64,000 nucleotides of DNA from Paracoccus jeotgali (GTDB lineage: Bacteria > Pseudomonadota > Alphaproteobacteria > Rhodobacterales > Rhodobacteraceae), in assembly GCF_002865605.1 (NCBI RefSeq), contig NZ_CP025583.1, positions 2,398,501 to 2,462,500 on the forward strand, written 5' to 3'. Every line of letters starts with the position of its first letter. Within the stretch, counting starts at the first letter, position 1. Below, piece after piece: positions 866-27,416 of this stretch. The notes under the pieces are model-generated. The model saw only the letters and a program-made list of their open reading frames with translations. It was not told the origin of the DNA and did no database searches. A program made the translations under genes and the position numbers.

Positions 866-2554
866 GTGAACGCCTTGGACGATTCAAGACAGATCCTGGT
901 CCTGCAGGACCTCTTGGCCCGCAATCGCCGCGACTATGCCGATAACGAGTGTCTGGTGGACCCGATCGACCGCGCCCGCATCGCCGATGGCGAGGCCAAG
1001 CGCCTGACCTGGGCCGAGTTCGGCGCCCGCGTCGACCGCGTTGCGCTGACGCTGTCGCGTGCCGGGCTGGGCAAGGGCGATGTGGCGCTGCTGGTGGCGC
1101 CCACGCTGCACGAAACGCTGGTCGCGCAGCTGGCCTGCATCGAGCTGGGCGCGCTGGTCGCCTCGATCCCCGTCCAGTATCGCGAGAACGAGGTCGAGGC
1201 GCTGATCGCGCGGCTCTCGCCCAAGGCGCTGATCGGCTATGCGCGGCTGGGCAAGCACGCCAATGCCAGGATGCTGGCCGAGGTCGCCGACCGAAGCGGC
1301 GCGCAAGCCGCCGTCCTCGCCTTTGGCGCCGATCTGCCCGACGGCGTGATCCCGCTGGACAATGACACGCCGCTGAGCGACGCCGAACAGGCCGAACTGG
1401 ACGCCATCCGCGAGGCCGTCGATCCGCAGCCCGACGATCCGGCCTTTCTGGTCTTTACCTCTGGCACCTCGGCGCGGCCCAAGGCGATTGCCCGCACCCA
1501 CGCCCAGACCCTGACCACATCCAGCTTTCTGCAGGACGTGGCCGACCTGCCGATGGGCGGCTGTTTCCTGTCGCCCCGGATGCTGAACACGGTCGGTTCG
1601 CTGGCCAACGGGCTCGCCTCGTGGCTGCATCTGGCGGCGCGGATGGTCCTGCACCACCCGTTTGATATCGAGGTCTTCCTGCGCCAGATCGCGCAAGAGC
1701 GGCCGCAGGTCACAAGCTGCCCGCCCGCCATCCTCAACATGATCCTGCGCCGCATCGAAGAGGGCGAGACGCTGGATCTGGACGGGCTGAAATACATCAC
1801 CTCGGGTTCCGCGCAGCTGAATCCCGCGCTGTTCCGCGAGTTCCGCGAGCGCTTCGGCATCAGGCTGGTCAACGTCTATGGGTCCAGCGAGGGCGCGATG
1901 CTGATCTCGTCCGACAAGGACATCCCCGACGAAGAGACCCGCGCCCATTGCTTCATGAGCCATGCCAAGGGTCAGCCCGGATCCTGCCTGCCGGCGCTGA
2001 CCGGTACCCAGACCCGCATCGTCGATCCCTCGACGGGCGAGGAAATCACCGCCCCCGATCAGGTGGGCGAACTGCGCCTGAAGGGGCCGGGGATGCTGGC
2101 AGGCTATTGGGACGATGCGGATCTGACCCGCGAGTCCTTCGACGACGAGGGCTGGTTCCGCACCGGCGATCTGTTCACCTTCTCGGGCGATCAGGGGCAG
2201 TATCTCAGCTTTGCCGGGCGGCTCAAGAACATCATCCTGCGCGGCGGGCTGAACATCTCGGCCGAGGAAATCCAGAACCTCGCCGCCACCCACCCCGCCG
2301 TGGCCGAGGCGGTGGCCGTCGCGGTGCCGGACGCCAAGCTGGGCGAAAAGGTCGGGCTGGCGGTGGTCCTGCGCCCCGGCCACCAGTTGACGCTGGACGA
2401 GCTGAACCGGCATCTGCGCGATGTCCGCAAGGTCGCGGTCTTCAAGCTGCCGGAATATCTGAAAACCCTCGACGCGCTGCCGACCATGGCCAGCGGCAAG
2501 ACCGATATCCACGCGATCCGGGCGCTGTTGCGGGCCGAGGCCGCGACGGACTAA
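866..2554 (+). CDS. AMP-dependent acyl/aryl-CoA ligase (ANL superfamily), paralogue 1
   Basis: This 562-residue cytoplasmic enzyme should activate a carboxylic acid to its CoA thioester through an acyl-adenylate. The phosphate-binding motif FTSGTSARPKA lies near residue 195, YGSSEG near 338, the TGD hinge region near 435, and the catalytic lysine in SGKTD near 543, so the family set is complete. It starts at GTG with an upstream AAAAGG. A paralogue at 9312 shares long blocks (SPRMLNT.G, PFD.EVFL.QI, TS.PPAIL). A thioesterase and a regulator follow in the same direction. The substrate is not evident, though the context suggests an aromatic or cleavage-derived acid. Confidence 0.85.
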   Translation: MNALDDSRQILVLQDLLARNRRDYADNECLVDPIDRARIADGEAKRLTWAEFGARVDRVALTLSRAGLGKGDVALLVAPTLHETLVAQLACIELGALVASIPVQYRENEVEALIARLSPKALIGYARLGKHANARMLAEVADRSGAQAAVLAFGADLPDGVIPLDNDTPLSDAEQAELDAIREAVDPQPDDPAFLVFTSGTSARPKAIARTHAQTLTTSSFLQDVADLPMGGCFLSPRMLNTVGSLANGLASWLHLAARMVLHHPFDIEVFLRQIAQERPQVTSCPPAILNMILRRIEEGETLDLDGLKYITSGSAQLNPALFREFRERFGIRLVNVYGSSEGAMLISSDKDIPDEETRAHCFMSHAKGQPGSCLPALTGTQTRIVDPSTGEEITAPDQVGELRLKGPGMLAGYWDDADLTRESFDDEGWFRTGDLFTFSGDQGQYLSFAGRLKNIILRGGLNISAEEIQNLAATHPAVAEAVAVAVPDAKLGEKVGLAVVLRPGHQLTLDELNRHLRDVRKVAVFKLPEYLKTLDALPTMASGKTDIHAIRALLRAEAATD

Positions 2555-2602
2555 GACAGAATGGCGGACCCGACCCGCCCGTTTCCACAGCCAAGGTCCC
2601 CC

Positions 2603-3034
2603 ATGCCCGAACGATCCGACCAGCCAAGCCCGCTGCCCTTCCTGACGCATGAGGCGCTGCGCTTTCGCGACATGGACCCGCTGGGGCATATCAACAACTC
2701 GGTCTATGCGACGCTGCTGGAACAGAACCGCGTGGCCTTCCAGTGCGAGCCCGGCGGATTCCGCGAGGCCCAGGGCCAGACCGCCGTGCTGGCGACGCTG
2801 ACCATCGACTTTCTGCGCGAGATGCGCTGGCCGGGCACGGTCGAGGTCTCGCTGGGGATCTCGCGGATCGGGCGCAGCAGCTTTGATTTCCAGCAGCAGA
2901 TCGTGCTGGACGGGCAGTTGATCGCCCGCGGCCGCTGCACGCAGGTCTTGATCGACGAGGGGTTGCGCAGCGCGGTGCCGCTGTCGGAGGAGCAGAAACA
3001 GATGCTGACGCGCTGGATGATCGACGCCGAATGA
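2603..3034 (+). CDS. Acyl-CoA thioesterase, 4HBT hot-dog fold
   Basis: A 143-residue single hot-dog domain protein. The N-terminal signature RFRDMDPLGHINNSVY (about residues 20-35) contains the Asp and the H-x-N-N typical of 4-hydroxybenzoyl-CoA thioesterase-like enzymes and YbgC relatives. I prefer the ATG at 2603, preceded by AAGG, over the in-frame ATG at 2561, which has no ribosome-binding site. It lies about 50 bases after the CoA ligase and probably shares its transcript. It may hydrolyse the CoA ester made by that ligase or relieve CoA trapping. Confidence 0.8.
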   Translation: MPERSDQPSPLPFLTHEALRFRDMDPLGHINNSVYATLLEQNRVAFQCEPGGFREAQGQTAVLATLTIDFLREMRWPGTVEVSLGISRIGRSSFDFQQQIVLDGQLIARGRCTQVLIDEGLRSAVPLSEEQKQMLTRWMIDAE

Positions 3035-3073
3035 TCGAGGCCCACAGATCGAGCAGCGCAGGAAAGGGACGTG

Positions 3074-4030
3074 ATGGATCAGGCCGCGCACGAGTTTGAC
3101 GACGACAGCACGCTGGTCGCGCGGTTCTCGGTGGTGCGGGCGCTGGCGGTGGTCGGCGACACCTGGACGCTGCTGATCCTGCGCGCGGCCTTCAAGGGCA
3201 CGCGGCGTTTCTCGGACTGGCAGAACGATCTGGGCATCCCCAAGGCGGTGCTGACCAACCGGCTGGACCGGCTGGTCGAGGCCCGCGTCTTCCGCAAATC
3301 GCCGGTCAGCAAGGGCGGCAAGCGGATGGAGTATTATCTGGACGAGGCCGGGCTGGACCTGTGGGAGACGCTGGTCGCCATGGTCCGCTGGTCGCGCCGC
3401 TGGTACTGGCCGCAAAGCGATGACGGGCTGTGGTTCCGCCATCGGCTGTGCGGCGAAAGATGCGACGTCATCCTTAGCTGCAATGTCTGCGCGCAGCCGC
3501 TGACGCCGTTCAACACCTATGCCGAACCCGGCCCCGGCGAGGGGCTGGAGCCGCGGATCGAACCGCATTCCCGCCGCCGCGCCAATTCCGCCATCCGCCA
3601 CGGGCAGGACGCGCTGGGTTCGGAAGAGGCGCTGACCCTGTTCGGCGACATGTGGGCGCCGGCCATCGTCGCCAGCGCCTTTCGCGGCGGCCGCCGGTTC
3701 AACGATCTTGTCGCCTATCTGCGCATTCCGCCGCTGGTGCTGTCCATGCGGCTGAAAGAGCTGATCGAGATCGGCGTGCTGGCCCGCCGCACCATCGACG
3801 ACAGCGAACGCTACGAGGCGTTTCACCTGACCCGCAAGGGCTTGGACCTGTTTCCCTATATCGCGATGATGGCAAAATGGGGCGACAAGTGGCGCGACGA
3901 TCCCAGCGGCGTGCCGCTGGTGTTCCACCACCGCGATTGCGGCCATGAATACACGCCGCTCTATCGCTGCTCGGCCTGTGGCGAGCGCATCCGCCGTGCC
4001 GATCTGGATATCCTCGACACGGGCTGGTGA
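3074..4030 (+). CDS. Double HxlR-type winged-helix regulator with cysteine clusters
   Basis: This 318-residue protein carries two HxlR-like winged-helix domains in tandem (roughly residues 10-110 and 185-280). Ordinary HxlR regulators are about 110-150 residues with one domain and work as dimers. Each domain is followed by a Cys-rich stretch: C-x3-C then C-x2-C after the first, C-G-H then C-x2-C after the second. This suggests a bound metal or a redox-sensitive pair. AAAGGGA precedes the ATG at 3074, and a GTG three bases earlier is the alternative start. It is the only regulator in the 866-17076 island, so it is the likely controller. Confidence 0.8.
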   Translation: MDQAAHEFDDDSTLVARFSVVRALAVVGDTWTLLILRAAFKGTRRFSDWQNDLGIPKAVLTNRLDRLVEARVFRKSPVSKGGKRMEYYLDEAGLDLWETLVAMVRWSRRWYWPQSDDGLWFRHRLCGERCDVILSCNVCAQPLTPFNTYAEPGPGEGLEPRIEPHSRRRANSAIRHGQDALGSEEALTLFGDMWAPAIVASAFRGGRRFNDLVAYLRIPPLVLSMRLKELIEIGVLARRTIDDSERYEAFHLTRKGLDLFPYIAMMAKWGDKWRDDPSGVPLVFHHRDCGHEYTPLYRCSACGERIRRADLDILDTGW

Positions 4031-4062
4031 CGGGTTTTGGACCGGCGGTCGCGACCTCTGCC

Positions 4063-4818
4063 CTAGACCGACAGCCGCATCCCGCCGGTCGCCTCGACGA
4101 TCTCGCCCGTGACCCAGCCCGCGTCTTTCGAGGCCAGAAACACCACCGGCCCGGCCAGATCGGCAGGCTCTCCGATCCGGCCCATGGGGATCAGATCGAC
4201 GACCGAGGTATAATTCGCCTTGGCCGAAAACGGGTGGAAATCGGATTCGACCAGCCCCGGTGCCACCGCATTGACGCGGATGCCCTCGGGCGCGAGCTCG
4301 CGGGCCAGCGCGCGGTTAAAGGCATCGACGCCGCCCTTGGCAGCGGTATAGGCGATGCCGCCAGGCACCCCGCCGACCCGCGTCACGGATGAGCTGATAT
4401 TGACGATGGCGGGCGCGTCGGATTTGCGCAGCAGCGGCAGCGCGGCCTGACACATCAGCATCTGCGAGGTCAGGTTGATCGCGATGACGCGGTTCCAGTC
4501 GGCCAGCGGCATGTCCTCCAGCCGGTTCTTCAACGGCGAGGCCCCGGCGCAGTTGACCAGCACATCCAGCCGCCCGGCATGGTCCTGTATCTGCGCGGCG
4601 ATGGCGCGCACCACCTCGGGGTCGGTCAGATCGCCATCGGTCTGCAGCGTCCTGGCGCCCTTGTCCTGCAACTCGCGGGCCACCGTCTCGGTCGCGTCCT
4701 GCTGGTTCAGCCCATGCAGCACCAGCTGCGCCCCGGCCTCGGCGAAACGATGGGCGATGGCGCGCCCGATCCCCGAGGCACTGCCCGTCACCAGAACGAT
4801 CCGGTTGCTGAAATCCAT
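4063..4818 (-). CDS. Short-chain dehydrogenase/reductase (SDR)
   Basis: A classical 251-residue SDR. TGSASGIG at residues 11-18 binds NAD(P), NCAG follows at 89-92, the catalytic Ser is in 142-144, and Tyr157/Lys161 form the Y-x-x-x-K motif. The open frame extends further upstream, but the ATG at 4818 is supported by AGAAGGA and sits two bases after the aldehyde dehydrogenase stop. It is the last gene of a minus-strand operon of thiolase, carotenoid-type oxygenase and aldehyde dehydrogenase. A role in oxidising or reducing an alcohol/ketone intermediate is plausible. Substrate unknown. Confidence 0.85.
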   Translation of the reverse strand: MDFSNRIVLVTGSASGIGRAIAHRFAEAGAQLVLHGLNQQDATETVARELQDKGARTLQTDGDLTDPEVVRAIAAQIQDHAGRLDVLVNCAGASPLKNRLEDMPLADWNRVIAINLTSQMLMCQAALPLLRKSDAPAIVNISSSVTRVGGVPGGIAYTAAKGGVDAFNRALARELAPEGIRVNAVAPGLVESDFHPFSAKANYTSVVDLIPMGRIGEPADLAGPVVFLASKDAGWVTGEIVEATGGMRLSV

Positions 4819-4820
4819 CG

Positions 4821-6266
4821 TCAGTCTTCCTTCTGCAAGGTTTCGAACCACCAGGGCGAGGCGCCCGGATTGCGGTTCACCAGGATCGCCTGCTTGCGCA
4901 GAAACCTCTTGAGCGCGTCGCGCCCCAGCCGCGACCCGCCAAGGCCAGAGCCGCGGAACGCGGTCTTTTCCGCCACCAGCCTGTCGCCCATCAGCATCGG
5001 CGCGATCCCGGCATCGTTGATCGAGATACCGCCGACCCACAGCCGCCGCGCCACGGCAATCGCCTCGGCTTCCGGCCCGAACACGGCACCGCTCAGGCCA
5101 TAGGTCGAATCATTGGCCAGCGTGACCGCCTGATCGACGCTGTCATAGGCCATGACCGGCAGCACCGGGCCAAAGGTTTCCTCGCGCATCACCAGCATGT
5201 CATGGGTGACATCGGCCAGCACCGTGGGCGGGCACCATTTCGCGCCGTCGCGGTCGATGATCCGCCCGCCGCAGAGGATGGTGGCGCCCTTCTCCACCGC
5301 ATCCTGCAGATGCCGTTCGATGATCTCGGCCTGCGGGGCGAAGGTCAGCGGCCCGATCTCGCCCTTGGCCGGATCGGGGTGGCTCAGCCGCAGCTTGCCC
5401 ACCTTGTCCAGCAGCAGATCCAGAAAGCCGTCGCGGTCGGCGCGGGGGACATAGATCCGCTCGATCGAATAGCATTGTTGGCCGCTGCCAAGCGTCGCGC
5501 CATTGGCGATGGCGGTCGCGGCGCGGTCCAGATCGGCGCCGGGCAGGATCACCGCCGGGTCCTTGCCGCCAAGCTCGGTAAAGCAGGGGATGAATCGCTG
5601 CGCCGCCTGCACGACGACCTTGCGCCCGGTCGCGGTCGAGCCGGTGAAGCAGACCAGATCGCTCTGCTCGACCACCGCCGCACCGATATCGCCCGCGCGG
5701 CGCAGATAGGCCAGCACATCGCGCAGGTCCGGCACCTCGTCCAGGATGCGATCCATGACGTCGATAAAGCGCGGCGTCACCTCGGACGGTTTGACCATCA
5801 CCGCCGCCCCGGCCAGCAGCGCCGGGACCGCGTCCATCAGCGACAGCGCGAGCGGGAAATTCCACGGGCTGATCACCCCGACCAGCGGATAGGCCAGATA
5901 GCCGGCCTGCGACGCGATGCCGGGAAATTCGGTGTCGTGCAGTTCCTCGGCAAAGGTCTCGGCCGCGATGCGCGACCAGCGCTCGACCCAGAAGCCGACG
6001 GCGGACAGCTCGATCCCGGTTTCGAAGCGCCGCCCGGTGTCGGTCTCGACGGCCCGGTGCAGCGCGTCGCGGTGACGCTGGATGGCGTCGGTCAACTGCG
6101 TCAGAACTGCGGCGCGATGCGCCACGCCGGCCTGTTCCCAAGCCGGTTGCGCGGCGCGCAGCCGTTCAGCCACCGCCGCCACGTCTGCCGGCGTATCGGG
6201 CAGGAAACTGTAATCGCGCGCGCCAGTGCGGGGGTTGCGCACCTCGATCGCGGATGCTGCGGTCAT
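4821..6266 (-). CDS. NAD(P)-dependent aldehyde dehydrogenase
   Basis: A 481-residue ALDH with a complete active site: the SPWNFP block (Asn136), Lys159 in KPSE, FTGST at 207-211, general base Glu231 in ELGGK, and nucleophile Cys265 in SGQQCYS. The start at 6266 follows GAGAGG by nine bases and is preferred to the longer frame from 6299. It lies directly downstream of the carotenoid-type oxygenase gene, whose reaction yields aldehydes, so oxidation of a cleavage aldehyde to the acid is the natural hypothesis. The SDR begins two bases after its stop. Confidence 0.88.
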   Translation of the reverse strand: MTAASAIEVRNPRTGARDYSFLPDTPADVAAVAERLRAAQPAWEQAGVAHRAAVLTQLTDAIQRHRDALHRAVETDTGRRFETGIELSAVGFWVERWSRIAAETFAEELHDTEFPGIASQAGYLAYPLVGVISPWNFPLALSLMDAVPALLAGAAVMVKPSEVTPRFIDVMDRILDEVPDLRDVLAYLRRAGDIGAAVVEQSDLVCFTGSTATGRKVVVQAAQRFIPCFTELGGKDPAVILPGADLDRAATAIANGATLGSGQQCYSIERIYVPRADRDGFLDLLLDKVGKLRLSHPDPAKGEIGPLTFAPQAEIIERHLQDAVEKGATILCGGRIIDRDGAKWCPPTVLADVTHDMLVMREETFGPVLPVMAYDSVDQAVTLANDSTYGLSGAVFGPEAEAIAVARRLWVGGISINDAGIAPMLMGDRLVAEKTAFRGSGLGGSRLGRDALKRFLRKQAILVNRNPGASPWWFETLQKED

Positions 6267-6358: not shown

Positions 6359-7855
6359 TCAGTCCGCCAGGCTGACGCCGTTTTCATACAGCATGTGCGG
6401 ACCGGCCCAGAAGGCATGGGCGCCGGTCGGGATGTGATAGGGCATGATGATCCGGCAGATCGGCCCCTTGTCGATATTGGCGGCATCGAACAGCACACAT
6501 TCGCCCTTGCCGGTGTTCACATTGGTCACGAAGGTCACGACGTAGCCGTCATCCTCGGATTTCGAGTTCAGGCGCGGGGCAAAGGGCGCCTCGCTGACGA
6601 ACTCGCCCTTGGGCATCATGAAGGTCTGGGTCTGGCCGGTTTTGACGTCGTATTTCTTCAGCCCGTCCAGCAACCACGACCCCGGCTGCGGCAGCGCGTT
6701 GTAGCTGTAGCGATAGTCGCGGCCGTTATGCAGGCCGTTGATCATCGGAAACTCGGTGATGGTGTCGTCCAGCCGCTCTTCCTTCGTCTCGCCGGTGCGC
6801 ATGTTGAAGCGCCAGCGATGCATCCGGGTTTCGGTCGTGTGCATGTCCAGCATCCGGTTCAGACGCTCGTAGCCCTCTTTCGGCAGGTCGGACATGTCGG
6901 GGATCGGGTTGCCGATGATGCAGCCGTCCATGACGATCTCGTCGCCATCCTCATAGGTGTTGGACAGGTGCAGCATATAGCAGGGTTCGGCCTCGAACCA
7001 CTTCACGTCCTCATTGGTGCCAAAGCGCGGGATCACCCCGAAGCGCGAGGGCACGTCGCGGTGGAAGCCCAGCCGATGCTTGCCCTGCTTCAGCCCCTCG
7101 TGGTCGAAATACAGCGGCAGGTCGTGCAGCACGCAGTAATTCTCGGTCATGCCCATGTCATGCGGCCAGCGCGGGCCGGGCAGGTCGATGGGAACATAGT
7201 GGACAAGGTTGTTCTCGGCATCGACGACGCCGTAATTCATGAAGGGCGGCTCTTCGGCGAAGTTGAAGAACATCATGTGGCCGCTGTGCTCGTCCACCTT
7301 GAAGTGCGAGCAGATGCCGCGGTCGCCAAGCGCCTGCGCCCAGTTCTCGTCCGGTCCCAGCGTTTCCAGCGTGCGCGTGTCCAGCCGGTAGGGCTCGGAA
7401 CATTGCGACATGGCGACGATGATCTTGCCGCCATGGACGATGACGTCGGTGCCGGCATTGTCCTTCATCTTGCCGATGCTGCCCCAGCCGCGACGGACCG
7501 CCTTGCGCGGCTCGATGATGCCGGGCCACAGCGACTTGCCGGCGGCGCGTTCGGCGAGCAGGCCCGTGGTCATGGTGAAGCGGTTGCGGTATTCGACCTT
7601 GCCCTCGTTGAACCAGACGGCATGCAGCATACTGTCGCCGTCAAAGGGGTGATAGCGGCCGATGGGTTCGTGGATCTGGTTGTGGCCGTTGCGGACATAC
7701 ATGCCCTGCAGATCCTTGGGGATCTCGCCCACCACCTCGAGCTCGGGGCCCTTTGCGGTGTATTCCAGGTCGATGGGCTTGTGCGGCCCGTTCAGATAGG
7801 GGTTGTCGTTCGGGAATTTCACGGTCGAATGACCGTGATCGAAGATATGGAGCAT
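6359..7855 (-). CDS. Carotenoid oxygenase family protein (lignostilbene/apocarotenoid cleavage type)
   Basis: A 498-residue non-haem iron oxygenase of the RPE65/carotenoid-cleavage family, similar in length to lignostilbene dioxygenases and isoeugenol monooxygenase. The HPFDGDSMLH block is at residues 69-78. The four expected iron-ligand histidines can be placed at about 184 (SHFKVD), 232 (PHDMG), 296 (MLHLSN) and 480 (GAHAFW). Such enzymes cleave a C=C bond with O2 to give aldehydes. The aldehyde dehydrogenase lies directly downstream and the thiolase upstream. Whether the substrate is a stilbene, phenylpropene or apocarotenoid cannot be decided from sequence. Confidence 0.85.
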   Translation of the reverse strand: MLHIFDHGHSTVKFPNDNPYLNGPHKPIDLEYTAKGPELEVVGEIPKDLQGMYVRNGHNQIHEPIGRYHPFDGDSMLHAVWFNEGKVEYRNRFTMTTGLLAERAAGKSLWPGIIEPRKAVRRGWGSIGKMKDNAGTDVIVHGGKIIVAMSQCSEPYRLDTRTLETLGPDENWAQALGDRGICSHFKVDEHSGHMMFFNFAEEPPFMNYGVVDAENNLVHYVPIDLPGPRWPHDMGMTENYCVLHDLPLYFDHEGLKQGKHRLGFHRDVPSRFGVIPRFGTNEDVKWFEAEPCYMLHLSNTYEDGDEIVMDGCIIGNPIPDMSDLPKEGYERLNRMLDMHTTETRMHRWRFNMRTGETKEERLDDTITEFPMINGLHNGRDYRYSYNALPQPGSWLLDGLKKYDVKTGQTQTFMMPKGEFVSEAPFAPRLNSKSEDDGYVVTFVTNVNTGKGECVLFDAANIDKGPICRIIMPYHIPTGAHAFWAGPHMLYENGVSLAD

Positions 7856-7902: not shown

Positions 7903-9102
7903 TCAAGTTGGGATACGTTCGATCACGGCAGCCGAGGCGACCCCGGCTGCCCCCGCGATTGCGACCAGTCCATAGCGCAGATCGCGGGCGTCCATTTCGT
8001 CCAGCAGGGTGCCGACCAGCATCGCGCCGGTCGCCCCCATCGGATGGCCAAGCGCGATCGAGCTTCCGTTGACGTTGAATTTGTCCAAGGAAAGATCGAA
8101 GGCGCGGATATAGTGCAGGGTGACGGCGGCAAAGCTGTCGCGCACCTCCCACAGGTCGATATCGTCGGCGCTTAGCCCGGCGCGCTGCAGGGCAAGGCGG
8201 CTGGCATCCACGGCGCCGGTCTGGGTGATGGCGACATTCGCCTCGGCGGTGGCGAGGATGCGGGCGCGCGGGGTCAGCCCGTGACGCTTCGCAGCATCTT
8301 CGCCCGCCATCAGCACCAGCGCCGCGCCATCGGCCATGGCCGGGGCGTTGCCGGCATGGTGGACATGCACGATCCGGTGCAGATCGGGAAACCCGCTCAG
8401 CAGGGCTGCCACGTCCGATGCGTCACCGACCTTTTCAAAGACCGGGTCCAGCCCGGACAGGCTTTCCGCCGTCACGCCGCTGCGGATGGTTTCGTCCTGA
8501 TCCAGCAGCACCGCACCGCTGGCATCGCGGACCGGGATGATCGAGGTGAAGGCCCCGCGCGCCCGCGCCGCCTCGGCCCGCTGTTGCGACAGCGCGGCAT
8601 AGGCGTCGCAATCGGCGCGGCTGATGTCGTGCTGCGTGGCGACCAGATCGGCGCCCAGCACCGGATGAACGGACCGCGCCGACCGCGCGACATCCTTATC
8701 CGCGAACAGCACCCCATTGTCGGAAAACATCGGGGTGCGGGACATCATCTCGACCCCGCCGCCCAGCACGACGCTGTCATTGACCTGCGCCTGCGCAGCC
8801 GCCGCATTGACCGCCGACAGGCCCGAGGCGCAGAAGCGGTTGATGGTGGCGGCGGGCACCTCGTCCGGCCAGTTCGCCCGCAAGGCCGCGACCTTGCCGA
8901 TGTTCGAGCCCTGATCCCCGGTCTGGGTGACGCAGCCGATCAGCGCATCGCCGACCAGCGCCTCGACCCCCGGATGACGGGCGGCAATTTCGCGGTAAAG
9001 CCCGGCCAGCAGGTCGGCCGCCCGCAGGCTGCTGAGCGCACCGCCCCTGGTGGTGCCACGGCCGCGCGGCGTTCGGATCGCATCGATGATGACAGTCTGC
9101 AT
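7903..9102 (-). CDS. Thiolase family protein lacking the second catalytic cysteine
   Basis: A 399-residue thiolase-fold protein. The acyl-accepting nucleophile is present as Cys91 in NRFCASG, and GHPMGATG with His353 is intact. In normal thiolases a second cysteine (C-x-G-G-G near the C-terminus) acts as acid/base. Here the matching segment reads VAIAGAAG, with Ala at about residue 383. The protein may do only part of the thiolase reaction, use another residue, or be a non-canonical retro-Claisen or acyl-transfer enzyme. It is first in the minus-strand operon, divergent from CoA ligase 2. Confidence 0.85.
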   Translation of the reverse strand: MQTVIIDAIRTPRGRGTTRGGALSSLRAADLLAGLYREIAARHPGVEALVGDALIGCVTQTGDQGSNIGKVAALRANWPDEVPAATINRFCASGLSAVNAAAAQAQVNDSVVLGGGVEMMSRTPMFSDNGVLFADKDVARSARSVHPVLGADLVATQHDISRADCDAYAALSQQRAEAARARGAFTSIIPVRDASGAVLLDQDETIRSGVTAESLSGLDPVFEKVGDASDVAALLSGFPDLHRIVHVHHAGNAPAMADGAALVLMAGEDAAKRHGLTPRARILATAEANVAITQTGAVDASRLALQRAGLSADDIDLWEVRDSFAAVTLHYIRAFDLSLDKFNVNGSSIALGHPMGATGAMLVGTLLDEMDARDLRYGLVAIAGAAGVASAAVIERIPT

Positions 9103-9136
9103 AACGCGCCGCCCTCCCCAAGAATCGTCGCTGTTG

Positions 9137-9151
9137 CTTCATTAGATGAAG
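9137..9151. promoter_or_regulatory. Perfect palindrome CTTCAT-TAG-ATGAAG in divergent control region
   Basis: Six-base arms around a three-base centre, 35 bases upstream of the thiolase start. It lies in the 209-bp region between the thiolase operon and the CoA ligase 2 operon. Its complement contains TCTAATGAA, also found before CoA ligase 1. It is a good candidate operator for the double-HxlR protein, but the binding partner is not shown by sequence. Confidence 0.4.
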
Positions 9152-9311
9152 TTTCGACTATGAATGTCAAGCCCGCATGTCGGCCAGAATAAACCTGCCT
9201 TACTTTAGCGCATATAACGACAAAAATGATAATAGTCGTAGAAAGCACCTCTGAATTGGTCTATCTACTGTAGTCAAGCGATTCGACATTACAGGGAAGG
9301 GGGGCCCGTTC

Positions 9312-11051
9312 ATGTGTTCAGCAGTCCAGACCCGTCACGAGGATGTTTCCGCAACGCCGCTGCTGCTTGGCGAGCTTTTGTTGCGGCGTCGCGCCGATGC
9401 GGCTGACCGCTGCGCGCTGATCGACCCGCCCGACCGGGCGCGCGTCACCGACGGCCCGGCACAGCGCCTGACCTGGCGCGAGGTCGGCGAGCGGGTGGAC
9501 CGCCTGTCGCTGGCGCTGCTGGATGCGGGCGTCCGCAAGGGCAGCATGGTCCTGAGCCCTGCGCCCACGGTTCACGAAACCATCATCGTGCAGCTTGCCA
9601 TCCTGCGTCTGGGCGCGATCTGCGCCCCGGTGCCGATCCAGTATCGCGAACACGAGCTGGCGCGGCTGATGGATGTGGTCGAACCCGACGCGATCGTGGG
9701 CTTTGCCCGGCTGGGCAAGTGCGCGCATATGCAGATGCTGCAGATGCTGCATGATCTGGTCGCCAAGCGCGGGAAGGATATTCCCCTGCTGGCTTATGGC
9801 CCCGACCTGCCCGACGGCGTCATCGCGCTGGACCCCGATGCGGCGCGGGCGCCCGATGACGCGGAATTGCAGCGGCTGGCGCGTTACGACGCGGCGCTGC
9901 AGCTTGGTCCCGACGACACGGCGATGATCGTGTTTTCCTCGGGCAGCGAGGCCTCGCCCAAGGCGGTGCGCCGCAGCCACAGCAACCAGATGCACCAGCG
10001 CCGCTTTCTGGCCGATATCGGCGGCTTGCAGGACGGCGCGTGTTTTATGTCGCCCCGGATGCTGAACACCATCGGCGCCATCACCACCGGGCTGGTGCCC
10101 TGGCTGGAACTGGGCGGCCGCATGGTCCTGCACCAGCCCTTCGACATGGAGGTGTTCCTGCAGCAGATCCGCGACGAACGCCCCGAAATGACCAGCGCCC
10201 CGCCCGCGATCCTGCAGATGATCCTGCAGCGCGACGACGCGGGCGAGGCGGTCGATCTGTCCAGCCTGCACCACATCACCTCGGGCTCGGCGCAGCTCAG
10301 CCCCTCGGTCGTGCATGCCTTCCGCGAGCGGTTCGGCATCGACATCGTCAATGTCTACGGATCAAGCGAAGGCGCGCTGCTGGTCTCGTCCGAGGCCGAC
10401 ATGGCAGCGCCCGAGGATCGCGCCGCCTTCTTCCCGGCCTACGGCTGGAACGGCTTCCGCTCGGCCCTGCCCTGCGCGACCGAGGTCGAGACGAAGCTGG
10501 TCTCGCCCGACACCGGCGAGGTCATCACCGAACCCGGCGTGCCGGGCGAGTTGTGCGTCCGCAGCCCGCTGGTCTTCGACAGCTACTGGAACGACCCGGC
10601 CCGCACCGCCGCTGCCTTCGACGACGAAGGCTATTACCGAACCGGCGACCTGTTCGAACACGCCGGCGGCGGCAGGCCCTATTACCGCTTTGTCGGGCGG
10701 CTGAAGAACATGATCGTGCGCGGCGGCATGAACATCTCGGCCGAAGAGATCGAGGGGCTGCTAATCGACCACCCCAAGCTGCGCGAGGTCTGCGTGGTCG
10801 GCCGTCCCGATCCCAAGCTGGCCGAGATCGTCGCCGCCGTGGTGGTGCCGAAACCCGGCCAGTCGGTGACGCTGGACGAATTGATCGCCTATCTGCGCGA
10901 TGACTGCCATGTCGCCGTTTTCAAACTGCCCCAGCACCTGACCGTCATCGAACACATGCCCCGCGCCGGCGGCGGCAAGGTGGATATCGGCGCGCTGCGC
11001 GACCTGGTCGCCACGGATGCGCGCAAGGAAACCGAAAAGGAAACGACATGA
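9312..11051 (+). CDS. AMP-dependent acyl/aryl-CoA ligase (ANL superfamily), paralogue 2
   Basis: A 579-residue paralogue of the ligase at 866. It has the ANL motif set: FSSGSEASPKA near residue 212, YGSSEG near 350, the TGD hinge near 443 and a C-terminal GGGKVD with the adenylation lysine. GGAAGGGG precedes the ATG. The stop overlaps the start of the next gene (ATGA), so it leads an operon with an alpha/beta hydrolase, TRAP PQM, a nitronate monooxygenase-like protein and an MFS carrier. Two related ligases in one locus suggest two acids released from one parent molecule, or acids at successive stages. Confidence 0.85.
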   Translation: MCSAVQTRHEDVSATPLLLGELLLRRRADAADRCALIDPPDRARVTDGPAQRLTWREVGERVDRLSLALLDAGVRKGSMVLSPAPTVHETIIVQLAILRLGAICAPVPIQYREHELARLMDVVEPDAIVGFARLGKCAHMQMLQMLHDLVAKRGKDIPLLAYGPDLPDGVIALDPDAARAPDDAELQRLARYDAALQLGPDDTAMIVFSSGSEASPKAVRRSHSNQMHQRRFLADIGGLQDGACFMSPRMLNTIGAITTGLVPWLELGGRMVLHQPFDMEVFLQQIRDERPEMTSAPPAILQMILQRDDAGEAVDLSSLHHITSGSAQLSPSVVHAFRERFGIDIVNVYGSSEGALLVSSEADMAAPEDRAAFFPAYGWNGFRSALPCATEVETKLVSPDTGEVITEPGVPGELCVRSPLVFDSYWNDPARTAAAFDDEGYYRTGDLFEHAGGGRPYYRFVGRLKNMIVRGGMNISAEEIEGLLIDHPKLREVCVVGRPDPKLAEIVAAVVVPKPGQSVTLDELIAYLRDDCHVAVFKLPQHLTVIEHMPRAGGGKVDIGALRDLVATDARKETEKETT

Positions 11052-11881
11052 GCAAGATCCGACTTCCCGACCACAGCGTCAGCGGCAGTGGCGACATCAC
11101 CGTGTTTCTGCTGCACGGCGCCTTTGGCGCCAAGGAATACTGGTTCCGCCAGATCGAGGCGCTGACCCATGCCGGCTACCGCGTCGTCGCCTGGGACGCG
11201 CCCGGCTATGGCGTCAGCCCGATGCCCGCCGATTTCAGCGTCGAGGCCGCCGCCCGCGCCGCCGAACACCTGATCCGGGCCGAGGGCACCGCCCGCAACG
11301 TCGTGCTGGGCCACAGCATGGGCGGGATGATCGCGCAGCGCTGCTACAGCTATTGCCCGGACCTGATCGACGGTCTGGTGTTGTCGGCGACCAGCGCGGC
11401 TTTCGGCAAGTCCGACGGCGACTGGCAACAGGAATTCGTCCGCGCCCGCGTGGCGCCGCTGGACAATGGCATGACCCTGCCCGAATTCGCGCCCAAGATG
11501 ATCGCCGCGATGCTGGCCCCCGGCTCGGCCGGTCAGGACATCGACCGCGTCATCAGCGTCGTCAGCCTGATGCGCGAGGACACCTTCCGCGCCGCCGTCC
11601 AGGCCATCACGCAGTTCGAGGGCCGCGACGTGCTGCCCATGATCGAGGTGCCGACGCTGTGCATCTCGGGCGGTCACGATCTGGCGGCGGCCCCGCCCAA
11701 GGTCATGGAAAAGATGGCCAGCAAGATCGCGGACGCCGAATATCACTGCATGGAGCATGTCGGCCATTTCGGCTGGGCCGAGGATGCCGACGGCTTCAAC
11801 AGGATCCTGATCGATTTCCTTGACCGCAGGGTCAAGGCTGCGGCACGCGATGTCGACGACCTCGCCACCGCGATGCACTGA
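11048..11881 (+). CDS. Alpha/beta-fold hydrolase
   Basis: A 277-residue single-domain hydrolase with no signal peptide. LLHGAFG at residues 21-27 supplies the oxyanion region, nucleophile Ser90 sits in GHSMGG, and the C-terminal SGGHD and GHFGW segments supply the probable acid and histidine. It overlaps the preceding CoA ligase by four bases (ATGA) and is followed by the TRAP genes. The context suggests hydrolysis of an ester, lactone or C-C bond in the same pathway. The fold alone does not give the substrate. Confidence 0.8.
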   Translation: MSKIRLPDHSVSGSGDITVFLLHGAFGAKEYWFRQIEALTHAGYRVVAWDAPGYGVSPMPADFSVEAAARAAEHLIRAEGTARNVVLGHSMGGMIAQRCYSYCPDLIDGLVLSATSAAFGKSDGDWQQEFVRARVAPLDNGMTLPEFAPKMIAAMLAPGSAGQDIDRVISVVSLMREDTFRAAVQAITQFEGRDVLPMIEVPTLCISGGHDLAAAPPKVMEKMASKIADAEYHCMEHVGHFGWAEDADGFNRILIDFLDRRVKAAARDVDDLATAMH

Positions 11882-11921: not shown

Positions 11922-12932
11922 ATGGGTAACCACTGGACCAACATGATCGCGGCTTTTGCCTTTGGCGGCGCTGCGATCGCCACCACCGCCGCCTATGCAG
12001 AGCCGAAAGAACTGAGCTTTGCCACCTACATCCCCGCCAGCTCGTCGTTCATCGTCGACGATCTGGTGCCGTGGACGGAATGGGTGAACGAGCGCGCGAA
12101 CGGCGAATTCAAGATCAAGGTCTATGCCGGCGGCACGCTCAGCCGCGACCCGAACCAGCAGGACAAGCTGGTCAAGGACGGCATCGCCGACATGGTCGCG
12201 ATCGTCCCCGGCCGCTCGCCGGGCGAATACCCGAACTATGCGATCTTTGAACTGCCCGGCTTTGCCCGCAGCGCCGCCGAAGGCACGCAGGCGGCGTGGG
12301 AGCTGTACAAGGAAGGCAAGCTGGGCCAGCACGATCAGATCCAGATCGTGTCGATGTGGATGGCCGAGCCGGGCATCCTGTTCTCGTCCAAGCCGGTCGA
12401 ATCGGTCGCGGATTTCGAAAACAAGCGCGTGCGCGTGGCCGGCGGCACCCAGACCGACACCATGCTGGCGCTGGGCGCGATCCCGCAGCCGGTCAAGGCC
12501 AGCGAGGTCGCCGAGGCGATCAGCCGCGGGATGCTGGACGGGGCGCTGGTCGACTGGACCGTGGCCGACACCTTCCGCGTCCACGAGGTGACGAACCACG
12601 TCTACAACATCCCGATGGGCTCGCTGCCCTTCCTGCTGGCGATGAACGTGGACACCTATGCCAGCCTCTCGGACGAGGGCAAGGCGCTGATCGACGAGGC
12701 CGGCGAGGAATGGATGCGCCGTCAGGGCCCGTTCTTCGGCGAAGAGGGCAAAGAGGTCCGTGCCAAGCTGGAAGCCAGCGGCAAGCACACCGTCGTCGAC
12801 GCGACCGAGGAGCAGATCCAGCTGCTTCTGGAAAAGACCAAGGCGCTGCGCGAAGACGTCGCCAGCCGTGTCGAACCGGGCCTGATCGAGGCCTATGACG
12901 AGAAGCTGCAGAAGTTCCGCGCCGGCAGCTGA
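11922..12932 (+). CDS. dctP: TRAP transporter substrate-binding protein DctP, system 1
   Basis: A 336-residue exported protein. The signal peptide is about 26 residues, with the cut after AYA. It is followed by a DctP-type fold with motifs such as WTEWVNE, GGTLSRDPNQQDKL and the RVAGGTQ region that carries the family's conserved arginine. A strong AAGGGAGGA lies just upstream of ATG 11922. It binds an organic anion in the periplasm and delivers it to the adjacent DctQ/DctM permease. Co-transcription with a CoA ligase points to the acid substrate of this catabolic island. Confidence 0.88.
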   Translation: MGNHWTNMIAAFAFGGAAIATTAAYAEPKELSFATYIPASSSFIVDDLVPWTEWVNERANGEFKIKVYAGGTLSRDPNQQDKLVKDGIADMVAIVPGRSPGEYPNYAIFELPGFARSAAEGTQAAWELYKEGKLGQHDQIQIVSMWMAEPGILFSSKPVESVADFENKRVRVAGGTQTDTMLALGAIPQPVKASEVAEAISRGMLDGALVDWTVADTFRVHEVTNHVYNIPMGSLPFLLAMNVDTYASLSDEGKALIDEAGEEWMRRQGPFFGEEGKEVRAKLEASGKHTVVDATEEQIQLLLEKTKALREDVASRVEPGLIEAYDEKLQKFRAGS

Positions 12933-12968
12933 TCCGGCACGGGGACGAGGAAAAACGGGAGGTCGAGG

Positions 12969-13499
12969 ATGTCCAATAACCTGCTCTTGCGCGTCGAGAA
13001 GTGGTCGGAGGCGATCAGCAAGCCGACCGCGATCATCGGGGTCGCATTCCTGCTGCTGGCTTCGGGCCTGACCATCGCGGATGTGGTCAGCCGGTGGCTG
13101 TTCGGCAAGCCGCTGATCTTCGTCCCTGACCTGTTCGGTCTCAGCATCATCCTGGTGGTGGCGGCCACCTTCCCCACCGGGGTGCTGCAACGCAAACACG
13201 TCGCCATCGACTTCTTCGGCACCTGGCTGGGGCGGCACGCCTCGCGGATCCTCGATTCGCTGGCCGCGCTGGCCACCGCGCTGTTTCTGGCCGTGCTGGC
13301 CTGGCAGGTGACCGAGGTCGCGATCAGCAAGGCGGCCGAGAACGACTATACCTATGTCATGCGCCTGCCGACCGCCCCCGTCTGGTGGCTGGCGGCGATC
13401 ATCATCTGGATCAGCGTGCCGATGCAGTTCGTCGTGTTCCTGCTGCAACTGGTCCACAACAAGTCCAAGCCTGCCGAGGACCTTACCCATGTCGAATGA
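12969..13499 (+). CDS. dctQ: TRAP transporter small permease DctQ, system 1
   Basis: A 176-residue protein with four predicted membrane helices (about residues 24-45, 57-74, 95-118, 138-160), the usual DctQ topology. It lies between the binding protein and the large permease, and its stop overlaps the dctM start. It forms the membrane complex with DctM and couples uptake to an ion gradient. Confidence 0.85.
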   Translation: MSNNLLLRVEKWSEAISKPTAIIGVAFLLLASGLTIADVVSRWLFGKPLIFVPDLFGLSIILVVAATFPTGVLQRKHVAIDFFGTWLGRHASRILDSLAALATALFLAVLAWQVTEVAISKAAENDYTYVMRLPTAPVWWLAAIIIWISVPMQFVVFLLQLVHNKSKPAEDLTHVE

Positions 13500-14799
13500 A
13501 ATGGTCGGCCTGATCGGCGTCGGCTCGCTGATGCTGATGATCGTGCTGCACATCCCCATCGGGGTCTCGATGGCCATCGCCGGCGCCGTCACCTTCGCCT
13601 TTCTGCGCAACTGGGACGCCGCCTTCTCGGTCATCGGGACCGAGGCGACCTCGGCCATTGCCAGCCCCGATCTGGCGCTGATCCCGCTGTTCATCCTGAT
13701 GGGCAACTTCGCCGCCGGCGGCGGCATGGCGCGCGACGTCTATCGCCTCGCCTTCGCCTTTGTCGGGCATCTGCGCGGCGGTCTGGCGATGGCCACCATC
13801 GGCGGCTGCGCGGGCTTTGGCGCGGTCAGTGGCTCGTCCATCGCCACCGTCACCACCATGACCAAGGTGGCCTATCCCGAGATGACCCAGCGCGGCTATT
13901 CGGAACGCCTCGCCGGGGGCAGCATCGCCGCCGGCGGCACGCTGGGGATGCTGGTGCCGCCCTCGATCATCTTCGTGCTGTATGGCATCCTGACCGAGAA
14001 TTTCGTGCTGACGCTGTTCACCGCAGCCATCGTGCCCGCGATCATCGCGGTGCTGATGCACTTCATCGCCATTCAGGCCTATCTGCGCCTGTCGCCTGAA
14101 TCCGGCCGCTCGGCCGAGCGGACAAGCTGGTCCGGGCGCCTGCACGCGCTGCGCGGGGCGTGGACGGTGCTGCTGCTGGCGGTTGTCGTCGCGGGCGGCA
14201 TCTATTCCGGCATCTTCACCGTCACCGAATCCGCCGCCGTGGGCGCCGTGCTGTCGATGGCCATTGCCCTGTTCCGGGGCGAGATGAAGATGCGCTCGTT
14301 CTGGGCCGCGCTGCACGACACCGCCGCCACCACCGCGATGATCTATGTCATCGTGATCGGCGCGGGCATCTTCAGCTATGCCATGACGCTGTCGCTGCTG
14401 CCCGAGACGCTGGTCAACTGGATCGGCGGGCTGCCGGTGCCGCCGCTGGTCATCATCGCCATCCTGATGATCTTCTACATCATCATGGGCGCGATCTTCG
14501 ACACCATCTCGGCCATGGTGCTGACGCTGCCCTTTGTCTATCCGGTCATCCTGCAGCTGGGCTATGACCCGATCTGGTGGGGCGTCATCATGATCATGGT
14601 GATCGAGATCGGCATGATCACCCCGCCCATCGGCATCAACGTGCTGGTGATGAACGCGATGCTGCCGGGATCTTCGCTGGGCACCATCTATCGCGGCATC
14701 GTGCCCTTCCTGATCGCGGATCTGGTGCGTCTGGTCATCCTGATCCTGATCCCGGCGCTGTCGCTGTATCTGCCGACGATCATGGGGATGCCGAGATGA
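13489..14799 (+). CDS. dctM: TRAP transporter large permease DctM, system 1
   Basis: A 436-residue polytopic permease with about 12 hydrophobic segments. Glycine-rich DctM signatures include GGCAGFGAVSGSS, AAGGTLGMLVPPS and GMITPPIGIN. The real start is ATG 13489, inside the end of dctQ (11-base overlap), rather than the longer frame that begins in dctQ. The nitronate monooxygenase-like gene overlaps its stop (ATGA). It is the transport channel of system 1. Confidence 0.88.
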   Translation: MSNEMVGLIGVGSLMLMIVLHIPIGVSMAIAGAVTFAFLRNWDAAFSVIGTEATSAIASPDLALIPLFILMGNFAAGGGMARDVYRLAFAFVGHLRGGLAMATIGGCAGFGAVSGSSIATVTTMTKVAYPEMTQRGYSERLAGGSIAAGGTLGMLVPPSIIFVLYGILTENFVLTLFTAAIVPAIIAVLMHFIAIQAYLRLSPESGRSAERTSWSGRLHALRGAWTVLLLAVVVAGGIYSGIFTVTESAAVGAVLSMAIALFRGEMKMRSFWAALHDTAATTAMIYVIVIGAGIFSYAMTLSLLPETLVNWIGGLPVPPLVIIAILMIFYIIMGAIFDTISAMVLTLPFVYPVILQLGYDPIWWGVIMIMVIEIGMITPPIGINVLVMNAMLPGSSLGTIYRGIVPFLIADLVRLVILILIPALSLYLPTIMGMPR

Positions 14800-15752
14800 C
14801 CGAGCGTTTCGGAAACCCAACCCTGCGCGACGAACTGCCGGGCCGGCTGCGCTACAGCCTGCCGGCCATCGTCGCGCCGATGTTCCTGGTCTCCAGCGGC
14901 GAGATGGTGGCCGCGGCGGCCCGCAACGGCGTCATCGGCGCCTATCCCTCGCTGAACGCGCGCAGCAGCGCGGGCTTTCGCGAGGTGCTCCAGACGCTGG
15001 ACGCAGCGCTGGCCGGGGCAGAGACGACGGCCTATGCGGTCAATCTGGTCACCCACCGCTCGAACCCCCGCTTTGCCGAGGATATGGCCGTCTGCGCCGA
15101 TCACCGCGTGCCGCTGGTCATCACCGCGCTGGGCAGCCCGACCCCGGCGCTGGGGCCGGTGCATGACTATGGCGGGCTGGTCTTTGCCGATGTGAACTCG
15201 CCCGCGCTGGCCCGCAAGGCCGCGGCCGCCGGGGCGGACGGGCTGATCCTGGTCTGCTGCGGCGCGGGCGGCCATACCGGCACCATGAGCCCCTTTGCCT
15301 TCGTGGACGAGGTGCGCCGCTTCTTCGACGGCCCGCTGGTCGTCGCGGGCGGCATCGGGACCGGGGCTGCCATCCGCGCGGTCATCGGCATGGGCGCCGA
15401 TCTGGCCTATATGGGCACGCGCTTTCTGGCCGCGCAGGAAAGTCTGGCGGTGCAGGATTTCAAGCAGATGGTCATCGACTGCGGCTTTGACGACATCCTG
15501 TGCACCGACGCGATCACCGGGGCGCTGGCCAACAAGCTGCGCCCCAGCCTGGTCCGCGCCGGCATCGACCCGGACACGCTGCAATCGGGCAAGGCCTTCG
15601 ATCTGTCGGGGCTGGAAAGCTCGGTCAGCAAATGGAAGGATTTGTGGTCGGCCGGGCACGGCATCGGCGCGGTCGCGGCGTCCGAAACCACGGCCGAGAT
15701 CATCGACGAACTCGCCTGCCAGTTCGCGGCCACGGCTGCCAAGGCGGCCTGA
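14796..15752 (+). CDS. Nitronate monooxygenase-like FMN protein (2-nitropropane dioxygenase family)
   Basis: A 318-residue TIM-barrel flavoprotein. GAGGHTG at 156-162 carries the family histidine, with FMN phosphate-binding AGGIGTG at 184-190 and MGTRF at 206-210. The start overlaps the dctM stop. Proteins of this family include nitronate monooxygenases but also many FMN oxidoreductases of unknown reaction. Placement in a CoA-ligase/TRAP operon makes an unrelated nitroalkane role less likely and suggests oxidation or reduction of a pathway intermediate. That is inference. Confidence 0.8.
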   Translation: MTERFGNPTLRDELPGRLRYSLPAIVAPMFLVSSGEMVAAAARNGVIGAYPSLNARSSAGFREVLQTLDAALAGAETTAYAVNLVTHRSNPRFAEDMAVCADHRVPLVITALGSPTPALGPVHDYGGLVFADVNSPALARKAAAAGADGLILVCCGAGGHTGTMSPFAFVDEVRRFFDGPLVVAGGIGTGAAIRAVIGMGADLAYMGTRFLAAQESLAVQDFKQMVIDCGFDDILCTDAITGALANKLRPSLVRAGIDPDTLQSGKAFDLSGLESSVSKWKDLWSAGHGIGAVAASETTAEIIDELACQFAATAAKAA

Positions 15753-15858
15753 GCTCCACCCGCTTGCAGCGCGCCGCGCGACGGGTCATCACACACATGC
15801 TTCACGGGCGACCGCGCTGGTCATGGGCCGAAGCGTCAGTCACAAGGACGGTCGCGCA

Positions 15859-17076
15859 TTGAACAAGATGTCAGCCAGCCAGCTTTCGCCCGCCCCCGTC
15901 GCGCCGATCATGTCCGCGCGCCGAGTCAGCCTGATGGCCGCGATGTTCGTCGCCATGGGGCCCATCGGCATCGCGCTCTATACCCCCGCCATGCCCGCCA
16001 TTGTCGAGGCGCTGGGCACCAGCAGCGGCATGGTCAAGCTGACGCTGACGCTTTATTTCGCGGGCTTTGCCTGTGCGCAGCTGATCGTCGGGCCGCTGTC
16101 GGACGCGCTGGGCCGGCGGCCGGTCATCATGGCGTTTCTGGGGCTGTTCGTCGTAGCCTCGCTGTTCGCGCTGATCGCGCAGTCCATCGAGACGCTGATG
16201 GCGGCGCGGCTGGCGCAGGGGATCGGAGCTTCGTCCGGGGTCGCCATCGCCCGCGCCGTGGTCCGCGACCTGTTCGAGGGCGAGGAATCGTCGCAGATCA
16301 TGAACACCATCGGCATCATCCTGGCCATCGCCCCGGCGTTGTCGCCCACCATCGGCGGCTTCATGGTCACGCTGTTCGGCTGGCGCTCTATCTTTGTGCT
16401 GATGAGCGTGATCGCCGTGATCGTGGTGCTGATCACCCGGCGCTTCCTGCATGAAACGGTGGTGGCGGACCGATCCCGGCTGAACATCGGCGCGCTGTTC
16501 CGATCCTACGGCACGCTGCTGGGGAACCGGCATTTCATGGCCTCGTCGCTGACCATCTCCGGCTCGAACGGGGCGATCTATGCGCAGGCGACGATCCTGC
16601 CCTTCATCCTGATCGACGAGCTTGGCTTTTCCTCGGCCGAGTTCGGGCTGGCGATGATCATGCAGTCGGGCAGCCTGTTCGTCGCCGCCATCATCATCCG
16701 CCAGTTGATGAAGCGCCACAGCGCCGACCGGCTGGTGGCGCCGGGGCTGGGGCTGATCGTGGTGGCCAGCCTGATGTTCCTGACGCTGCTGTTCCGCGAG
16801 CCCAGCCTGATCGGCGTCATGGGGCCGGTCGCGATCTATGTCTTCGGCATCGCGGCGGTCATGCCGGCCAGGTCGACGGCGGCGCTGGCGCCGTTTCCCT
16901 CCATGGCCGGGGCGGCCTCCTCGCTGATGGGGTTCCTGCAGATGGGCGCGGGGCTGGTCGCAGGCTCGGTCGCGGCGCTGTTCGGCGACCCGGTGACGCC
17001 GCTGGCGGTGCTGATCCCGCTTTTGGGGCTGCTGGCCTGCCTGTCCTATGCCGTCTATTGGACCCGGCCCGCCTGA
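15859..17076 (+). CDS. MFS drug/solute exporter, Bcr/CflA type
   Basis: About 405 residues with 12 predicted membrane helices. It has the motif-A segment G-R-R-P-V and the family-typical RAVVRDLFEG after helix 4. I chose TTG 15859 because AAGGA lies ten bases before it; ATG 15868 is a near-equal alternative. It is the last gene of the plus-strand run, 106 bases after the nitronate monooxygenase-like gene. It may export a toxic intermediate or end product of the island. Confidence 0.8.
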   Translation: MNKMSASQLSPAPVAPIMSARRVSLMAAMFVAMGPIGIALYTPAMPAIVEALGTSSGMVKLTLTLYFAGFACAQLIVGPLSDALGRRPVIMAFLGLFVVASLFALIAQSIETLMAARLAQGIGASSGVAIARAVVRDLFEGEESSQIMNTIGIILAIAPALSPTIGGFMVTLFGWRSIFVLMSVIAVIVVLITRRFLHETVVADRSRLNIGALFRSYGTLLGNRHFMASSLTISGSNGAIYAQATILPFILIDELGFSSAEFGLAMIMQSGSLFVAAIIIRQLMKRHSADRLVAPGLGLIVVASLMFLTLLFREPSLIGVMGPVAIYVFGIAAVMPARSTAALAPFPSMAGAASSLMGFLQMGAGLVAGSVAALFGDPVTPLAVLIPLLGLLACLSYAVYWTRPA

Positions 17077-27413: not shown

Positions 27414-27416
27414 CGC

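Follow-up and report, generated by a model that had tools for sequence, protein, structure and literature searches.

Gene Content and Layout of the Locus

The 64,000-nucleotide stretch of Paracoccus jeotgali DNA considered here (the window) comes from the main contig, 3.1 Mb long, of a genome of 3.3 Mb and carries, within 866-17076, fourteen genes that include a carotenoid-cleavage-type oxygenase (CCO), a thiolase and two CoA ligases. Third-position GC is high, as in coding sequence of a GC-rich genome, and every gene named in an initial annotation of this DNA is present, with coding-type codon structure and clear Pfam matches. The layout claimed there also holds: a divergent operon pair is adjoined by a ligase-thioesterase-regulator unit. 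The annotated gene list was right as far as it went, but its title omitted an NMO/FabK-family FMN enzyme that belongs to the recurring core.

The minus-strand operon consists, in order, of the thiolase (7903-9102) and the CCO (6359-7855), each with a match to its Pfam family (RPE65 for the CCO), an aldehyde dehydrogenase (ALDH, 4821-6266; Aldedh, 2e-95, active-site motifs ELGGK and GQQC) and a short-chain dehydrogenase/reductase (SDR, 4063-4818; adh_short_C2, 1.4e-60, start codon inferred). The plus-strand operon begins with CoA ligase 2, a class I adenylate-forming enzyme (9312-11051; AMP-binding, 4.3e-61), and a PcaD-like alpha/beta hydrolase (11048-11881; Abhydrolase_1, nucleophile motif GHSMG). 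These are followed by a complete tripartite ATP-independent periplasmic (TRAP) transporter: the solute-binding protein DctP (11922-12932; 2.7e-34), whose closest solved structures by sequence are 7nr2, 5i5p, and 5iga, the small permease DctQ (12969-13499; 1.6e-14) and the large permease DctM (13489-14799; 8.6e-90). The NMO/FabK-family enzyme (14796-15752; NMO, 2.3e-24, GGHTG at residue 158, so that the GGH motif is retained) and an MFS transporter (15904-17076; MFS_1, 8.4e-43, start uncertain) complete the operon. The adjoining unit, also on the plus strand, comprises CoA ligase 1 of the same class (866-2554; AMP-binding, 1.4e-61), a 4HBT-type thioesterase (2561-3034; 4HBT_2, 9.4e-20) and a regulator with two HxlR stretches in one protein (3071-4030).

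The two ligases are 50.4% identical over an alignment of 542 aa. Ligase 1 has both FTSGTSARPK and the C-terminal Lys motif; ligase 2 retains the latter and has an unusual P-loop, FSSGSEASPK. With that peculiarity, the catalytic motifs of the NMO-family enzyme, hydrolase, ALDH, and ligases are all found. Several starts in the list of open reading frames lie too far upstream, the likelier ones being 6266 (ALDH), 4818 (SDR), 11922 (DctP), 13489 (DctM), 14796 (NMO), and about 15904 (MFS).

Recurrence of the Gene Set

Scanning genome contigs with the window CCO gave 23 loci (loci are given L numbers, genomes G numbers). In samples of relatives, family and phylum, CCOs of 41-50% identity again often stand beside an NMO-family enzyme, a doubled HxlR regulator, a ligase and a thiolase, both in Alphaproteobacteria and in other proteobacteria. 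The genes occur in new orders in Marivita (L001), a proteobacterial bin (L002), Cupriavidus (L003), Rhizobiales 62-17 (L004) and a Bordetella-labelled bin (L005), and further reshuffled copies are found in Pararhodobacter (L006), Rhodoferax (L008), Shimia (L009) and a fragment (L016). Conserved synteny in relatives, the lack of which had been set beforehand as refuting a single pathway, is found, with the genes reshuffled.

The comparison with other CCO loci is clear-cut. A partner was called at a coverage of at least 50% and an identity threshold chosen by the authors for each gene. The 48 control loci comprise 40 of the 66 out-of-clade places among 82 listed, taken in score order and skipping G602, G533, and G524, together with L020-L023 and L068-L070 (47 in total) and L019, whose CCO is 39% identical. 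None of the controls has any of the core partners. Among the 35 loci whose CCO is at least 40% identical, the thiolase and the NMO-family enzyme are each found at 17, the doubled HxlR regulator at 20, the ligase at 16 and the alpha/beta hydrolase at 12. These frequencies (34-57%) correspond to Fisher p-values of 9e-6 to 4e-10, which are indicative only because the thresholds favor relatives of the window proteins and because the loci, all found by similarity, are related sequences rather than independent events and include near-copies (L003 and L149) that count twice. Chance clustering was rejected on the contrast with the controls. At least one core partner is present at 28 of 36 clade loci, or at 25 of 33 without the plasmid loci L146, L147, and L149, whose partner lists were compiled by hand.

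The core of the module is thus the CCO, thiolase, NMO-family enzyme, ligase and doubled HxlR regulator, joined by the alpha/beta hydrolase in most nearer copies; the SDR, ALDH, thioesterase and MFS transporter are accessory. The earlier assignment of the genes to one pathway is supported; window-type versions of the accessory genes are not universal. That the gene set forms one functional module is very likely.

Accessory and Exchangeable Genes

At the thresholds chosen, the window-type SDR and ALDH occur together at only 2 of the 36 clade loci (L002 and L016), where the SDR lies beside the CCO; the plasmid copies of Cupriavidus and Sphingopyxis have other SDR-ALDH pairs, about 29-35% identical. 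The window-type thioesterase occurs at four (L001, L002, L006, L016), which also hold the best-matching copies of ligase 1, and the MFS transporter has merely partial matches of 24-31% in relatives (L001, L006, L017). Importers differ from copy to copy: the TRAP system of the window is replaced elsewhere by Bug/TctC receptors, ABC genes with a Peripla_BP_6 receptor, a porin with an MFS transporter, or TonB receptors. The means of CoA activation also differs: a CaiB-like protein, named by reading of its sequence rather than by Pfam, is encoded at L007, L008, and L011, where no module-type ligase was found, and a CoA-transferase pair adjoins the CCO in Sporosarcina (L015). This combination of a varying front end with a recurring middle has the look of a pathway that breaks down an organic anion, and the module is likely to serve the catabolism of an imported compound of this kind.

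Several loci show further arrangements. The Gram-positive version in Sporosarcina (5688-13344 of L015) has, in a row, ALDH, amidohydrolase, DUF3870, CoA-transferase A and B, CCO, hydrolase and TctC receptor genes. At 12116-13588 of L010, an MlrC/M81 metallopeptidase-family gene directly adjoins CCO, hydrolase and Bug genes. On Cupriavidus basilensis pRK1-2 (L147, 14840-23460), a second cluster adjoins the module: a MarR regulator, two alpha/beta hydrolases, a Bug receptor, a second CCO without the glutamate discussed below (55%), a porin, an MFS transporter and an ALDH. L010, L012, and L014 resemble this second cluster, and paired CCOs also occur at L017, L052, and L056.

An Oxygenase with Altered Iron-Site Surroundings

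The window CCO has the seven-bladed propeller fold of the RPE65/CCO family, with His184, His232, His296, and His480 as iron ligands. The four histidines are invariant, both in the 41 CCOs of the window type and in the 49 others aligned. The family is further described, in the accessible parts of the sources, as having three second-shell acidic residues, each bonded to one of three histidines (PMC8191317, PMC8866865, PMC5133782), and these glutamates as being required (PMC5133782). In the window CCO, the first of these positions is Gln151, the other two being Glu368 and Glu422. Across the 41 CCOs of this type (window included) the first glutamate is replaced by Gln (36), Arg (3), Asn (1) or Met (1), whereas all 49 other CCOs keep it; the remaining pair is E,E in 40 of the 41. 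Because all of the Glu-less enzymes keep their four histidines, the iron site is retained but altered.

The Glu-less CCOs form a clade (SH-aLRT support 100), within which L018 is nested and keeps the glutamate. Members come from Alpha-, Beta-, and Gammaproteobacteria and from Sporosarcina, and the nearest relatives of the window CCO are from Rhodobacterales. Sequences shorter than 400 aa were excluded from the alignments and tree, and L016 (which carries the ligase, hydrolase, thioesterase, SDR and ALDH) was dropped on this account. Since the first second-shell glutamate is replaced, the window CCO belongs to a divergent clade within the family and is not a standard member. The existence of a natural, conserved Gln clade tied to a gene set of its own opens the role of this position to a direct test.

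The substrate pocket also differs from that of lignostilbene dioxygenases (LSDs). According to the portion of PMC8191317 available, LSDs carry Phe-59, Tyr-101, and Lys-134, of which Tyr-101 and Lys-134 bind the 4-hydroxyl of the substrate. The aligned residues of the window CCO are Phe71, Ile113, and Ser150. The stilbene or phenylpropenoid substrate proposed initially is unsupported because this phenol clamp is absent. For the same reason a 4-hydroxystilbene substrate was rejected, and there is good confidence that the substrate is of another type. The enzyme scores well below the cut-offs of the NCBIfam equivalogs for lignostilbene dioxygenase (237.4 against 800 bits) and 8′-apo-carotenoid 13,14-cleaving dioxygenase (218.7 against 675 bits).

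A Thiolase Without the Second Catalytic Cysteine

NEAF and CxG are catalytic motifs of thiolases. Of the four motifs usual in a degradative thiolase, the window enzyme has the nucleophile Cys91 and the GHP histidine (His353), and lacks these two: RDSF replaces NEAF, and the CxG cysteine is absent. The same pattern holds in its relatives. Among the best 120 of 7,150 matches (the window's own included), all have the nucleophile, the GHP histidine and RDSF, and none has a cysteine at the CxG position; this cysteine is likewise missing from all 18 module thiolase copies read. The four other thiolase loci of the same genome keep both NEAF and CxG.

Regulator and Divergent Promoter

In the regulator, two HxlR domains are fused, and an H-x2-C-x9-C-x2-C motif follows each of them. 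In an alignment of 20 copies (window included), these eight His/Cys residues are kept in 19 or in all 20. The protein appears to bind metal, and it could sense a reactive carbonyl or the thiol state. The promoter region between the divergent operons (9103-9311) contains a perfect 15-bp palindrome, CTTCATTAGATGAAG, at 9137-9151, and a looser repeat with 5-bp arms at 9217-9239, both candidate operators only. A search for a conserved operator found the palindrome core, TTCATNNNATGAA, only in the window's own sequence, and not in the relatives' loci examined.

Distribution and Mobility

The module is patchily distributed. At E ≤ 1e-100, the CCO is matched in 4 of 394 genomes of the family and 14 of 398 of the phylum (own genome counted). 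Within the genus, only 1 of 24 other genomes has a match (G001, 35% identity), and the core partners are all absent from its locus (L070). The window proteins have no match in the flank stretches of three relatives of the same genus (G023, G822, G813). These stretches align, in rearranged order, with parts of the right flank (starting near 17393-17420 in the case of G023 and G822), and a search for an empty insertion site in all three found no clean junction. Copies are found on plasmids: Cupriavidus basilensis pRK1-2, C. necator pENH92 and Sphingopyxis granuli pRW412b. In pRW412b, IS21 transposase genes flank the copy on both sides, and a Rieske oxygenase and a TonB receptor lie inside it. 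Horizontal transfer is the simplest account of this distribution. The combination of an MSQ-type CCO and an RDSF thiolase can serve as a marker for finding the module in genomes, and the recurring cluster, which is also plasmid-borne, offers a way into the study of a carbon source that bacteria of several classes use.

Scans of the window for tRNAs and Rfam families found no element. Outside the module, a second TRAP gene set (DctM, DctP), separate from that of the module, lies at 25570-28514 on the minus strand. The open reading frame at 10-474 has its GC excess at the first rather than the third position and is probably no real gene on that strand. At 50958-52169, a baeRF family 3 protein (archaeo-eukaryotic release factor-like), to which no role is assigned, adjoins a large Na/H exchanger that contains a cNMP domain.

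Proposed Pathway and Alternatives

On balance, the sequence data favor a horizontally mobile catabolic module, newly described as far as could be searched, whose substrate would be an imported carboxylate that has a conjugated C=C bond and is no 4-hydroxystilbene. The enzyme types suggest the following order. The TRAP system (elsewhere Bug, ABC, MFS or TonB systems) would import the acid, and the CCO, an iron enzyme with four His ligands from a clade of its own, would cut the C=C bond to give carbonyl fragments, which the SDR and ALDH would oxidize to the acid level. The ligases would then form CoA esters. By analogy, the FMN enzyme may work as a FabK-like reductase, or as a related redox enzyme, on the CoA ester in its unsaturated or beta-keto form. 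The alpha/beta hydrolase and the thiolase would split C-C bonds in retro-Claisen-type reactions with a leaving group for which no cysteine acid is required. The thioesterase would recycle CoA, and the doubled HxlR regulator would control both operons. The substrate may be alicyclic or terpenoid (apocarotenoid-like) or an aryl-alkenoic acid without the 4-hydroxystilbene pattern; a weak preference, itself doubtful, goes to alicyclic or terpenoid acids over other aryl-alkenoic or polyene acids. The initial statement that this is not a described pathway agrees with the literature searched, from which subscription papers were mostly outside: no paper joining at least three of the key family names was found, and none on the cluster was recognized.

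Some observations weigh against this reading. No core partner is present at 8 of 36 clade loci (L007, L010, L013, L015, L017, L057, L063, L065), of which L007 and L013 are short and the other six span about 20 kb; L007, L010, L013, and L015 have a different hydrolase family (protein cluster 7) instead. Many copies are incomplete in the stretch examined, with a thiolase but no NMO-family enzyme at L001, L008, and L055 and the HxlR regulator alone at L058 and L060. The window-type ALDH also occurs at one control locus (L133). The reductase role of the NMO-family enzyme is an analogy, and the loss of a glutamate required elsewhere by mutagenesis (PMC5133782, in the part available) means that the window CCO may be no ordinary oxygenase.

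This last point leads to the possibility that the CCO does not cleave C=C bonds at all and that the Gln in its second shell marks a non-redox iron function (isomerization, hydration, decarboxylation or ring cleavage). All Glu-less CCOs keep the four histidines, and RPE65, which has the same fold, performs isomerohydrolase chemistry (judging from titles in reference lists). The same substitution has been made as an engineered test mutant of the cyanobacterial enzyme ACO (Glu150Gln, 5kjd, record title), and the paper on that mutant reportedly found the glutamate to be a requirement. An intact fold, with its iron ligands and other two glutamates, argues the other way, as do the SDR and ALDH partners, which suit an aldehyde product. 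This alternative is unlikely, and the CCO probably performs an O2-dependent C=C cut. Slightly less likely still is stilbene or phenylpropenoid catabolism, in which a lignostilbene-type dioxygenase would give aromatic aldehydes, a role at odds with the replaced Tyr and Lys. Separate neighboring pathways that share a mobile region would account for the variable SDR, ALDH, thioesterase and MFS genes and for the many incomplete copies; they are very improbable, given that the five core partners keep turning up, in varying order and orientation, in different classes and on plasmids, and never at the controls.

The catabolism of an apocarotenoid or cyclic-terpenoid acid (abscisate-, ionone- or retinoate-like) is a more serious, if still doubtful, candidate. 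Here, the CCO would cut the side chain and the ring half would be processed via CoA esters, as in late steroid-ring degradation. The best PDB sequence match of the window CCO is plant CCD1. Alphaproteobacterial loci (L061, L062, L064, and others) add DUF1295 (steroid-reductase-like) and SnoaL-like proteins, a second thiolase-like protein and SDRs, and the only NCBIfam match of the Rieske protein of pRW412b is a sterol monooxygenase (82.6 against 600 bits). The steroid lower pathway has a similar set of ligase, NMO-family enzyme and thiolase (FadD3, IpdC, FadA6). All these links are weak analogies, however, and the accessible text of two papers on bacterial abscisate degradation makes no mention of a carotenoid oxygenase (PMC7996341, PMC9599779).

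Returning to the mobile carboxylate pathway, it is conceivable, though rather tentative, that it combines two re-engineered active sites, the CCO with Gln, Arg, Asn or Met in place of Glu and the thiolase without an acid/base cysteine, with altered mechanisms for C=C cleavage (or another iron reaction) and for C-C thiolysis, acting on a substrate class for which no described bacterial pathway was found.

Comparison with Known Systems

A link to bisphenol was looked for in Sphingomonas bisphenolicum pBAR2. The stretch examined holds genes for an NMO, a ligase, an SDR and a thiolase; since it lacks a CCO, it has no bearing on the substrate. The same applies to Sphingobium WTD-1.

Steroid ring C/D degradation (FadD3, IpdC, IpdF, FadA6) appears analogous in bringing together a ligase, an NMO-family enzyme, an SDR and a thiolase. 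In contrast, none of the fourteen module genes is of the CoA-transferase or enoyl-CoA-hydratase type by Pfam, and the FadD3-family model gives ligase 1 only 222 bits, under its 657-bit cut-off. The lower beta-ketoadipate pathway (PcaD, PcaIJ, PcaF) follows the same chemical sequence, from hydrolase through CoA activation to thiolase, and the CoA-transferase subunits beside the CCO at L015 add to the resemblance. The module hydrolase, however, reaches only 115 of the 255.85 bits set for PcaD (TIGR02427), and the thiolase, without NEAF and CxG, 231 of the 597 set for PcaF. The standard PcaD/PcaF route was rejected on these scores.

Plant CCD1 and apocarotenoid oxygenases are biosynthetic or signaling enzymes without CoA-ester partners. 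They share with the window CCO the highest sequence similarity in the PDB and a Ser at the LSD Lys position, but the aligned CCD1 keeps the second-shell Glu where the window CCO has Gln. The sphingomonad lignostilbene dioxygenases and lignin-dimer pathways (LsdA-H) have the same CCO fold, the four histidines, a catabolic setting and a downstream ALDH. Unlike these, the module CCO has lost the second-shell Glu and has no equivalents of Tyr-101 and Lys-134, and its partners are a ligase, an NMO-family enzyme, a thiolase and a hydrolase in place of dimer-pathway enzymes (PMC12997858, accessible part). Catabolic clusters, CCOs and thiolases are known kinds; what is unexpected is the conserved absence, from two enzymes of a single mobile pathway, of residues that define catalysis in their families.

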